Shown here one piece after another: positions 9,172-12,912 of a stretch of DNA of 36,964 nt. The position numbers and the translations under genes were made by a program. The stretch is from Alicyclobacillus sendaiensis NBRC 100866 (GTDB lineage Bacteria; Bacillota; Bacilli; Alicyclobacillales; Alicyclobacillaceae), in contig NZ_BCRQ01000028.1 in the NCBI RefSeq assembly GCF_001552675.1, forward strand, positions 1 through 36,964. Reading direction: 5' to 3'. The notes under the pieces are model-generated. The model saw only the letters and a program-made list of their open reading frames with translations, was not told where the DNA came from and did not search any database. Numbering within the stretch: position 1 is the stretch's first letter; every line of letters starts with the position of its first letter.

Positions 9172-9870
9172 GTGAAGCGGCACGCAGGAGGGGAGAGGAC
9201 GCTCGGGGACGCCGTCGCGGACGCGCTTCGTAGGGAGATCGTGTGGGGAGAGTGGCCGAAGGGGCATGTGTTCAGTGAAAACGCCTTGGCGCGCCGCTTC
9301 GGTACGAGCCGCTCGCCGGTGCGCGAGGCTTTGCGACAGTTGGCGCACGAGGGCTTGATTGCGCTTGGCCGAAACGGGGCGCAGGTGGTGGGGTTGGACC
9401 TGGGAGATGCGTTGGAATTGTACGACGTCAGGAGCATGATTGAGCAGTTCACCGCGTCACGCGTGTGTGAACGGCCGCGCGCCGAGCGCGCATCCCTCGC
9501 TCTGATGCTTTCGGCGCTTGTCTCGGCCATGGAGGAGGCGGTTTCCCGGAAGGACTGGAAGGACTTGTCCAACCTCGACCTGGCCTACCACGACGCGATC
9601 GTGCGCGCGTCGGGCCATCGCCGCGTGTCGCGCATGTGGGAAGAGATGAGGAGCCTCGTCGAACTCACGCTCGCGCTCGTCATGCGCAGGCGGATGCAGC
9701 GCGGAGACGCGGATATGCGAAGCGCGCTCGCGCAGCACCGAAGTCTCGCGGAGGCCATCCTCGCCGGCGATGCGGCGTGGGTAAAGCGCGTCATGCAGTC
9801 TCACGTCGAGGAGACGCGCAGGTTGCTCGAGAGCGGTCTGCACGAGAAGCTTGTCGACGACGAGCGTTGA
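9172..9870 (+). CDS. GntR-family regulator with FCD (FadR-type) domain
   Basis: The product has 232 residues. An N-terminal winged helix of GntR type covers about residues 10-78 (FSENALARRFGTSRSPVREALRQLAHEGLI). A helical FCD effector domain follows (about 85-220) with likely metal-binding His residues in AYHDAIVRASGH and in the QHRSLAEAI and QSHVEETRR helices. Such regulators sense carboxylates or sugar acids. GTG 9172 has AAAAGGAGGGG just upstream. It is divergent from wrbA and convergent with the acetate transporter. Its targets are not evident; the acetate genes nearby are one possibility. Confidence 0.9.
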   Translation: MKRHAGGERTLGDAVADALRREIVWGEWPKGHVFSENALARRFGTSRSPVREALRQLAHEGLIALGRNGAQVVGLDLGDALELYDVRSMIEQFTASRVCERPRAERASLALMLSALVSAMEEAVSRKDWKDLSNLDLAYHDAIVRASGHRRVSRMWEEMRSLVELTLALVMRRRMQRGDADMRSALAQHRSLAEAILAGDAAWVKRVMQSHVEETRRLLESGLHEKLVDDER

Positions 9871-9919
9871 CGAAGCGCAGGGTGCAGGTGGGCGGATGAG
9901 GCTGAGGTCGCCATGCGCA

Positions 9920-9944
9920 AAGGCGGCCTGGCAAGGGCCGCCTT
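9920..9944. terminator. Hairpin between gntR and the convergent acetate transporter
   Basis: AAGGCGGCC (9920-9928) and GGCCGCCTT (9936-9944) form a perfect 9-bp stem with a 7-nt loop. It probably stops transcription from both sides, although the T-tract is minimal. Confidence 0.5.
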
Positions 9945-9996
9945 GCACGGGCTATACATGGGGAACGAGAAAGGCAAGCGAATTCTTCGCGATGAA

Positions 9997-10581
9997 TTAA
10001 GCGCTTACACCGGTTGCAGAAGTGCGCTTTAGGACAAACGGTTGCCCCACGGGCATGAAGACATGGCCCATGGTCTCGTTGAGCACCGTGGCAAACGAGG
10101 TATAGAGTGCGCTCAAACCGCAGATAAAGCCGACCCAGCCACCGGCCGTGCTGCTGCCGATGATGCCAAAGGCGTGAGCCGCGAGCAGGAAGAACGTGAT
10201 CCAGAGCGTCAAGAACACGAACCAGAGCGCCTTATTCAGGTAGAAGGTGCCGAACCACAAAAACAGCGTGAGGATGCCGAAGAACAGGAGGAAGAGACCC
10301 AGGCCTGCCGTGGGCGCGAACTTGTTGATGAGGTAGAACGCCCACCAGAACGCGCCATACGAGCAAAATGCGGTGGCGCCGAACGTGTTGCCCTTGCGGA
10401 ACTCCCAAAGTCCGGCGATGAACTGCGCCGCACCGCCGTACGCGATGGCGAGTCCCAGGACGACGCCGAGTGCGCCTGCACTCGTCACGCCCGCGTTGAT
10501 GAGGCTCAGGATGCACGTTGTGATGCCAAACCCGGCGAGCCCAAGCGGACCAGGATCTGCGATTTTCGCCTGATCAGACAT
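9997..10581 (-). CDS. satP: Acetate uptake transporter, GPR1/FUN34/SatP family
   Basis: The product has 194 residues and six membrane segments. It opens with the family signature variant DPGPLGLAGFGITT (usually N-P-A-P-L-G-L) and contains GGAAQFIAGLWEFRKGNTFGATAFCSYGAFWW, described here by its parts: the AQ..AG..EF..GNTFG block and the YGAFW block are conserved. Members are acetate/succinate-proton symporters. ATG 10579-10581 (MSDQAK) has AGAGGGTG upstream. It lies about 130 nt downstream of acs on the same strand, so uptake and activation of acetate are linked. An unusual hairpin occupies the gap. Confidence 0.92.
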   Translation of the reverse strand: MSDQAKIADPGPLGLAGFGITTCILSLINAGVTSAGALGVVLGLAIAYGGAAQFIAGLWEFRKGNTFGATAFCSYGAFWWAFYLINKFAPTAGLGLFLLFFGILTLFLWFGTFYLNKALWFVFLTLWITFFLLAAHAFGIIGSSTAGGWVGFICGLSALYTSFATVLNETMGHVFMPVGQPFVLKRTSATGVSA

Positions 10582-10650
10582 TCTGTTCACCCTCTTTTCC
10601 ATCTCTTTTTCACGGGTTGACAACGGCTCGGCAAACGACGAGTGGGCGTC

Positions 10651-10684
10651 CTGCGCCTGCCGGATCACCTCCTTCCAGGCGCAG
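10651..10684 (-). other. Hairpin presenting a 13-nt perfect Shine-Dalgarno sequence, no start codon
   Basis: CTGCGCCTG (10651-10659) and CAGGCGCAG (10676-10684) are a perfect 9-bp inverted repeat. On the transcribed minus strand the 16-nt loop reads GAAGGAGGTGATCCGG. Its AAGGAGGTGATCC complements the 3' end of bacterial 16S rRNA over 13 contiguous bases. No ATG, GTG or TTG follows at a usable distance. It lies between acs (stop 10711) and satP (start 10581). Confidence 0.6.
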
Positions 10685-10710
10685 GATTTCACAGGCGCCG
10701 GGCATTCACA

Positions 10711-12660
10711 TCATTCCTGATCCTTGTACTGCGCTTTGAGCTGCTCCACGATGGCCGGATCCGCCAGCGTGGTGGTGTCGCCGACCACGCGGCCCTCCGC
10801 GATGTCGCGCAGGAGGCGGCGCATGATCTTACCGCTGCGCGTCTTGGGGAGATCGGCCGTGAAGATGATCTCCTCGGGCCGGGCCATCGCGCCGATTTGT
10901 TCGACAACGAATTGCTTCAGTTCTGCGACGAGATCGTCCGAACCGGTGTGGCCCTCCTTGAGGATGACGAATGCGGTGATGGCCTGCCCCTTCACCTCGT
11001 GGGCGCGTCCGATGACGGCCGCCTCGGCGACTGCGGGATGCGCCACCAGGGCGCTCTCCACCTCTGCCGTGCCGATGCGGTGGCCGGACACGTTGATGAC
11101 GTCGTCCAAGCGTCCGACAATCCAGTAGTAGCCGTCCTGATCTCGGTAGGCTCCGTCCCCAGGCAGGTAGATGCCTTCGAACTTGCCGAAGTACGTCTTG
11201 CGGAACCGCTCGTCATCGCCCCACACGGTGCGCAGCATGGAGGGCCAAGGCTTGGTGATGACGAGGTTGCCGCCGTGCCCGGGCGGGACAGGATGGCCGT
11301 CGTCATCGAGAATATCGACGGAGATGCCGGGCACGGGCTTGGTAGCGGAACCCGGCTTGGTGGTGATGATGCCCGGAAGTGGAGCGATCATCGCACAACC
11401 CGTCTCCGTCTGCCACCACGTGTCCACGATGGGGCACCGCTCCTGGCCGACGTACTTGTGGTACCACATCCACGCCTCCGGGTTAATGGGCTCGCCGACG
11501 GATCCGAGCAGCCGGAGCGTGCTGAGATCGTGCTTTTCGACGTACTGCGGGCCCCACTTCATGAACATGCGGATGGAGGTCGGCGCGGTGTACAGGATGG
11601 TCGCGCCGTACTTCTCCACGATGGCCCAATAGCGGTCGCGATCCGGATAATCGGGCGATCCTTCGTACATCACGACCGTCGCGCCGGCCGACAGCGGCCC
11701 ATACACGATGTACGTGTGGCCGGTGATCCAGCCGATGTCCGCCGTGCAGAAGAACACGTCATCGTCCTTCAGATCGAAGACGGTCCGCATGGACGTGTTG
11801 ACGCCCACCAAGTATCCGCCTGTGCTGTGGACGATGCCCTTCGGCTTGCCGGTGGTGCCAGACGTGTAGAGCAAGAACAGGTAGTCTTCGGCGTCCATGG
11901 GTTCGGCCGGGAACGGTTGCGTCGGCGCGCTCGCCATGGCCTCGTGCCACCAGATGTCCCTCGCGGGGTTCATGGTTGCCTGCGCCGCTTCGCCGATCCG
12001 CTGGACCACCACCACCTTTTCGATGGGCGTGCCCGCGACCGCCTCGTCCGCGTTCTGCTTGAGCGGAATGACTTTGCCGCGGCGCCAGCCGCCGTCCGCG
12101 GTGATGAGCAGCTTGCTGCCGGCGTCCAGGATGCGGTCCTTGAGCGACTGCGCGGAAAATCCGCCGAACACGACCGAGTGCATGGCGCCGATTTTCGCGC
12201 ACGCGAGCATCGCAATAGGCAGCTCCGGCACCATGGGCAGGTAGATGGTGACGCGATCGCCCTTCTTGACGCCGAGCTTCGTGAGCATATGTGCGGCTTT
12301 GTCGACTTCGCGCCGCAACATGTCGTACGTGAGGACGCGGCTGTCACCCGGTTCGCCTTCCCAGATGATGGCCGCCTTGTTCTTGCGGTGGGTGAGCGTG
12401 TGGCGATCCACGCAGTTATATGCGGCGTTCAGCTTGCCGCCGATGAACCATTGCGCGTGCGGCGGGTCCCATCTGCAAACGCTTTCAAATTCATGAAACC
12501 AAGTGATATGTTCAGCTTGCTTCGCCCAGTAACTCTCGGGATCACGCGCCGCTTCCTCGTAAATGCTTTCATCGTTGTAATTCGCTTGACGGCGAAATTC
12601 TTCCGGCGGGGCAAAGGTGCGTGTTTCACGGAGTAGTGCGTCGAGATCATTCGGGGTCAT
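10711..12660 (-). CDS. acs: Acetyl-CoA synthetase (AMP-forming)
   Basis: The product has 649 residues, full length for Acs. It converts acetate, ATP and CoA to acetyl-CoA through acetyl-AMP. The adenylate motif [11 protein letters not shown] is at residues 265-275. The DTWWQTETG block and the hinge region [17 protein letters not shown] are present. The catalytic Lys, the usual site of regulatory acetylation, is K611 in [14 protein letters not shown] at 12658-12660 has AAAGGAG 8 nt upstream. A good sigma-A promoter lies at 12720-12748 and a consensus cre site in codons 58-62, so carbon-catabolite control by CcpA is likely. satP follows. Confidence 0.97.
12473..12488 (-). promoter_or_regulatory. 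CcpA cre site inside acs
   Basis: Read on the acs strand, TTGAAAGCGTTTGCA fits the cre consensus WTGNAANCGNWNNCW at every position. It overlaps codons 58-62 of acs, about 225 nt after the predicted transcription start. A block of elongation by bound CcpA would repress acs when sugar is available. acsA of B. subtilis is a known CcpA target. Confidence 0.7.
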
Positions 12661-12719
12661 GGTCTGGCTCCTTTCTCTGGCCGCGGCAATCACGGCGACA
12701 ACTTGAATGGGTCAATTTC

Positions 12720-12748
12720 ATCATAGAATAAGTTGTTCAAAAAGACAA
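12720..12748 (-). promoter_or_regulatory. Sigma-A promoter of acs
   Basis: On the minus strand: -35 TTGTCT (12743-12748), 17-nt spacer, -10 TATGAT (12720-12725). Transcription would start near 12713, about 53 nt before the acs ATG. Confidence 0.75.
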
Positions 12749-12860
12749 TCTCCAAACGGCGTCAATGCCTATATATTCGAAATTCGCTGCGATTTATGCC
12801 CCTCATTTCTAGGGAATGAACGCGTGCGCACGTGTGGCCGAAGGACTTCACGAGGGCATG

Positions 12861-12897
12861 AAAAAACCGTTTCGCGGTGTTTCACACCACGAAACGG
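12861..12897 (-). terminator. Strong intrinsic terminator after the DUF1292 gene
   Basis: On the minus strand a 13-bp stem (12885-12897 with 12867-12879, one wobble) with a 5-nt loop is followed by six T residues (12861-12866). It ends the DUF1292 transcript, 16 nt after its stop codon. Confidence 0.9.
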
Positions 12898-12912
12898 CGA
12901 TGGAGAGGAAGC

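Follow-up and report, generated by a model that had tools for sequence, protein, structure and literature searches.

Standby sites offer the 30S subunit a landing place upstream of a gene, typically in unstructured RNA that lies next to a folded start region. In B. subtilis, a polypurine stabiliser from the phage SP82 is said to protect downstream message. Strong Shine-Dalgarno (SD) sequences can stabilise downstream message in Bacilli even without a start codon, as stated in the accessible text of PMC3997798, and the effect of the cry3A STAB-SD is accounted for, in the available sections of PMC4113751, by a 30S subunit that blocks RNase J1. For mycobacteria, the accessible part of PMC2358910 describes a katG mRNA that arises by processing of a furA-katG transcript. 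Non-initiating, stabilising SDs are known from few leaders, chiefly that of cry3A. The comparison presented here yields a family of orphan SDs that are tied to one gene, satP, and located inside an apparent operon; in its extreme form, present in six species, the orphan SD is the sole full-tail complement of 16S rRNA found outside the 16S genes.

The acs-satP locus and its hairpin

The window analysed here is a 36,964-nt stretch of DNA from Alicyclobacillus sendaiensis NBRC 100866. Within it, acs and satP follow each other in line on the minus strand, which is the coding strand, with a gap of about 130 nt between them. The relevant features are as follows.

10711-12693, minus strand: acs, acetate-CoA ligase
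9997-10581, minus strand: satP, acetate uptake transporter of the GPR1/FUN34/YaaH family
10649-10686, minus strand: hairpin with a perfect 11-bp stem, TCCTGCGCCTG / CAGGCGCAGGA (arms 10649-10659 and 10676-10686), and a 16-nt loop
10660-10675, minus strand: hairpin loop GAAGGAGGTGATCCGG, 16 nt
10662-10674, minus strand: 13-mer AAGGAGGTGATCC, perfect complement of the 16S 3' tail GGATCACCTCCTT; an orphan SD without a start codon
10659-10676, minus strand: GGAAGGAGGTGATCCGGC, in which 18 consecutive pairs, two of them G-U, are possible with the 16S 3' end
10587-10594, minus strand: the weak SD region of satP itself, GAGGGTGA

In a site scan, the sole promoter-like site called on the minus strand within 9850-12900 lies upstream of acs. 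Neither a promoter nor a processing site was found in the interval from acs to the hairpin, and no terminator-like site was called between acs and satP; the two genes are probably co-transcribed.

The 16S genes of relatives, and one 16S gene of the genome itself (L044), terminate in GGTGCGGCTGGATCACCTCCTTTCT, so that the 18 consecutive pairs with GGAAGGAGGTGATCCGGC are possible and the loop contains the exact complement of the 13-nt tail, which we take to be the stretch after helix 45. A first-pass annotation of this DNA had described a perfect 9-bp stem whose loop is perfectly complementary to the 16S 3' end. The complementarity was confirmed at 10674-10662 against the 16S gene ends, and the stem is indeed perfect, but it is 11 bp long; the 34-nt span reported earlier comprises its inner 9 bp. 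The remarks that the complementarity exceeds what translation needs and that no start codon follows 4-13 nt downstream also hold; no ATG, GTG or TTG occurs 4-12 nt after the GGAGG of the loop.

Structure prediction, which had been proposed as a check, supports the stem: the inner ten pairs have a predicted probability of 0.83-1.0 at both 37 and 60 C in all six species that carry the hairpin. Within the loop a small helix of 3 bp can arise, which leaves the 13-mer only partially accessible by prediction (mean unpaired 0.54-0.60); opening this helix would cost approximately 5 kcal/mol. The predicted duplex between the loop and the 16S tail amounts to -26.1 kcal/mol, versus -11.2 kcal/mol for the SD of satP itself. 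Thirteen base pairs within a 16-nt loop are geometrically tight, and fewer pairs, or some opening of the stem, may be required.

Several other elements lie at or near the locus. A second small hairpin (CTCG-loop-CGAG, 10627-10642) occurs after the main one, with arms that are kept in five of the six species and a variable loop, as judged by eye. A sequence that we take to be cre-like, TGTAAGCGCTTAA, overlaps the satP stop codon (9997-10009, minus strand) and is also found at L003-L005; sites to which we give the same presumptive label are present upstream of several stand-alone satP genes as well. Between satP and a convergent gene at 9172-9870, which is GntR-like by eye, there is a GC-rich inverted repeat, AAAGGCGGCCTGGCAAGGGCCGCCTTG (9919-9945), that recurs at L003-L005. 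It looks like a candidate two-way terminator; the scan called no terminator there. The sequence GATCAG at the 3' end of acs (10717-10722) is complementary to CTGATC at the start of satP (10572-10577), with a matching double change at L006 (GACCAG/CTGGTC). L003 and L007 each break a pair, and support from ensemble folding is inconsistent. One minimum-energy fold brings the acs 3' end into long-range contact with the satP start, a pairing that was rejected as inconsistent across species.

Conservation and rarity of the hairpin

The stem with this loop is present in six of the 15 genus genomes, once in each, and was not seen in the other acs-satP gaps examined. These six species share a conserved block.

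10640-10685, minus strand: conserved 46-nt block, including 9 nt 3' of the stem, with 45 columns invariant among the six species

The single variable column is C/T, where a C-G pair becomes U-G and pairing is kept, and the longest invariant run is 38 columns. In the flanking genes (the last 450 acs codons and satP), 59 of 304 four-fold sites (19%) are invariant in the same six species, and the longest invariant runs in coding sequence are 17 nt in acs and 12 nt in satP. The stretch from the acs stop codon to the block is mostly variable. The SatP proteins of the other five species are 94-97% identical to that of the window. By the first-pass annotation, a stem or loop not conserved in close relatives would have spoken against its reading; both are conserved, and with so many invariant columns the relic that it listed among its options is out for the six-species clade. 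The block extends 28 nt beyond the GGAGG, and its edge falls approximately where a 30S footprint of the size that we assume would end, a coincidence that is suggestive only.

The 13-mer AAGGAGGTGATCC occurs at 72 sites across the 15 genus genomes. The 20 copies in the six hairpin species are six hairpins and 14 ends of 16S genes, each of the latter inspected individually. Of the remaining 52 sites, which lie in the other genus genomes, 16 were opened, and these proved to be 15 16S ends and one non-16S site (L039 in G004). A search for other copies of the loop in stems, also suggested earlier, yielded no second hairpin in the genome. The arms occur once more in both G002 and G003, around an unrelated loop. 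Pairing strength was scored as a simple sum (GC 3, AU 2, GU 0.8). The pairing score of the hairpin was not reached in any of 1000 dinucleotide-shuffled versions of the gap, and in 400 kb of one complete relative, sampled on both strands, only the antisense of a 16S end (65) exceeds the hairpin (43.6), with the next site at 32.6. On these comparisons, a chance origin can be regarded as excluded in the six hairpin species. In 61 genomes there is a sole 14-mer match outside the genus (G036); it lies opposite a 618-aa ORF and was taken as chance.

Orphan SD sequences in wider relatives

An orphan SD with full pairing to the CCUCC core and a score of at least 20 is present in 23 of the 26 acs-satP gaps that measure 75 nt or more, counts that come from related species and are thus not independent events; one further gap scores 19.8. 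On the antisense strand of the same gaps there is none (0/26), and in other co-directional gaps of 75-320 nt there are two among 57. This background derives from 58 gaps delimited by a crude longest-ORF caller in the window and 20 stretches of G003, one of which was deliberately placed to include the acs-satP locus; one of the 58 is the locus gap itself.

The 26 gaps are the acs-satP gaps first surveyed plus L127 and L128. Not counted among them are L084, whose gap is identical to that of L058, L087, where satP has no adjoining acs, five gaps shorter than 75 nt (L079, L081, L082, L085 and L089), and the order-level loci. One of the latter, L156, lacks a site in a gap of about 190 nt, and its inclusion would give 23 of 27. 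L152 and L160 show partial core pairing only and are not treated as positives, and no satP piece was obtained for L158. Gaps that lack an orphan SD are found in three genomes with 14-18 nt between the genes and in two with 58-61 nt. Among the 26, L088 and L096 lack one; the acs match at L096 is only 43% identical.

At 22 of 24 sites, no start codon occurs 4-12 nt after the core, the exceptions being L058 (TTG) and L092 (GTG). Depending on the species, the orphan SD lies 74-245 nt from satP. Shuffle tests on single gaps with a site are modest outside the clade, with p from 0.001 to 0.34. The strength of the wider case is repetition, though among related species. A hairpin common to the whole family was considered and rejected as unsupported, since the SD has a mean unpaired value of 0.12-0.73 outside the clade. 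The SD, rather than the hairpin, is the wider feature, a point that the first-pass annotation overlooked.

The orphan SD goes mostly with satP and less with acs, which the first-pass annotation also missed. When acs lacks an adjoining satP, a clear orphan SD is found within 420 nt in one of 12 genomes (L102). Sites that score at least 20 at L106, L107 and L108, where acs also occurs without satP, were assigned by eye to the start of the next gene or to coding sequence, and terminator-like hairpins or other genes lie behind the other satP-less acs genes. In G029, where the two genes are apart, the 3' side of acs (L103) has no orphan SD and the satP leader (L165) has AGGAGGTGGT, 189 nt upstream of satP and approximately 40 nt past the start that a promoter-like TTGTAA-17-TATATT predicts. 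A stand-alone satP at the order level, L155, has AGAGGGGGTGG 82 nt upstream, with no fitting promoter called. In a distant relative (L160), AGAAAGGAG, with four of the five core bases, lies about 30 nt beyond the start predicted by TTGTCA-17-TATAAT. Promoter-like matches occur in these scans of satP leaders at a number near that expected by chance. Seven order-level satP leaders (L149-L151, L153, L154, L156 and L159) have no orphan SD, even though acs lies upstream of satP at L156.

At L102 (in G035), the orphan GGAGGTGAT begins 33 nt downstream of the first nucleotide of the acs stop codon, with no satP behind it. No satP remnant was found nearby by tblastn within 1.5 kb. The site is possibly a leftover from a lost satP.

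Possible functions

It may be that the hairpin, and the orphan SD more widely, is a STAB-SD-like, 30S-binding 5' stabiliser of the satP message; this is the reading that we tentatively favour from the sequence comparisons. The loop would present the whole complement of the free 16S 3' tail, and a 30S subunit would bind to it. Since a start codon is missing after the SD of the loop, the bound subunit would be unable to initiate. It would instead stand in the way of RNase J degrading the message from 5' to 3', and the stem would add another obstacle. Cleavage or trimming of an acs-satP transcript from its 5' end would then remove the acs portion earlier than the satP portion. Genes for RNase J (628 bits) and RNase Y (783 bits) are present in the genome. 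Among the functional options of the first-pass annotation, it is the "mRNA protector" that fits best. Three central elements of this model are inferences: that the 30S binds the loop in living cells, that an mRNA has its 5' end close by, and that the satP message is stabilised.

A more specific proposal is doubtful but worth stating. The hairpin might be a dedicated docking site whose loop has become adapted to grip the free 16S tail over its full length. A non-initiating 30S would be trapped within the operon, 5'-to-3' decay of the acs part would halt at satP, and the ratio of the two proteins would be set in this way and might vary with the availability of free 30S subunits. On this view, the family as a whole would rely on the orphan SD, and the hairpin would strengthen it in one lineage.

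The first-pass annotation had put first a standby or loading site, at which the 30S would bind the loop, move about 75 nt to the weak satP SD and raise satP translation. Part of this fits: the SD of satP itself lacks full core pairing in all six clade species and at L008-L013, and the orphan SD outscores it in 24 of 24 gaps with a site. The remainder fits less well, and we consider a standby role unlikely. The distance to satP varies widely, and the region from the satP SD to its AUG has a mean unpaired value of 0.47-0.66 in the clade, about half open, and of 0.32-0.54 in four more species of the genus (L008-L010 and L013). A complement of the full tail should hold the 30S and slow its release, and an orphan SD is still present at L080, L090 and L127, where the SD of satP is strong.

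Recognition by a factor in trans, either an RNA-binding protein such as CsrA or a C-rich small RNA directed at G-rich loops, is improbable. Purine-rich hairpin loops are a usual form in which targets are presented to CsrA and to small RNAs, and the conserved block does run 9 nt beyond the stem on its 3' side. However, the genome, which is 99.95% complete, has no CsrA match, while controls from E. coli, B. subtilis and T. maritima were positive, and no RsaE/RoxS RNA was found in it with the model used, for which a B. subtilis control was positive. The core position that faces the U of CCUCC is A at 13 sites and G at 11 (n = 24), which also speaks against such a factor, weakly so because the sites were selected for core pairing.

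Alternatively, a trapped 30S could act as a silencer, repressing satP or uncoupling its translation from that of acs. According to the accessible part of PMC8470358, structured SDs can hold ribosomes non-productively, as in E. coli rpsO with S15. At 74-245 nt from satP, though, the site does not overlap the satP start, and silencing seems quite improbable.

The orphan SD might also serve an overlooked small ORF or an N-terminally longer SatP, given that the satP frame is open upstream to 10692 in the window and that in several relatives the SD is immediately followed by an ATG. This is very improbable, as nearly all sites lack a start codon at a suitable distance, clade gaps of 129, 131 and 132 nt break the frame, and the mini-ORFs of relatives are mutually dissimilar by eye. 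Least probable of all is a transcription terminator, DNA operator or repeat element: the inverted repeat is perfect and GC-rich, but the stem is followed by CGCCCACTC rather than a U tract and was not called as a terminator, the stem with this loop occurs only once per genome, and the loop is invariant to the same degree as the arms. A search of Rfam gave nothing at the gathering threshold in the window, with one chance match (E 0.97, 14.6 bits versus the 45 needed).

If the favoured stabiliser model is correct, the hairpin would provide a compact natural 30S clamp with which to study the blocking of RNase J by bound subunits, and orphan SDs that annotation ignores could be a way of encoding differences in mRNA stability between parts of a Firmicute operon.

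Comparison with known systems

No work on the acs-satP locus was found in titles and abstract openings retrieved for STAB-SD, orphan Shine-Dalgarno, and Alicyclobacillus with Shine-Dalgarno, from literature that includes few subscription papers. Compared with standby sites, whose start regions are typically folded, the satP start region is about half open.

The E. coli rpsO leader, as presented in the accessible part of PMC8470358, is likewise a folded RNA able to hold a ribosome non-productively, but it requires protein S15 and includes the gene start, whereas the hairpin described here has no start codon and no known ligand. In the mycobacterial katG and gyrase mRNAs, purine-rich sequences complementary to 16S rRNA, or 5' hairpins, protect the downstream message (PMC2358910, accessible portion). 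The same portion of that paper places the katG sequence 4 bp from the start codon and makes stability dependent on translation; there is no start codon near the element here.

The closest described system is the cry3A STAB-SD of Bacillus thuringiensis, which is also an untranslated, SD-like RNA capable of pairing with the 16S 3' end and does not initiate; it lies near -129, as compared with 74-245 nt upstream of satP here (PMC4113751, available sections). With respect to these two properties, the element pairs with the 16S 3' ends of its own genome and of its relatives over 13 nt perfectly and over 18 with G-U pairs, and at the level of sequence it is non-initiating, as all six clade species lack a start codon 4-12 nt past the core. 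The present element differs from that of cry3A in that it is intercistronic, matches the whole tail and occupies the loop of an 11-bp hairpin. To our knowledge, no described STAB-SD sits in a hairpin loop. On its two shared sequence-level properties, the element is best filed as a putative STAB-SD variant rather than a proven member of that class.
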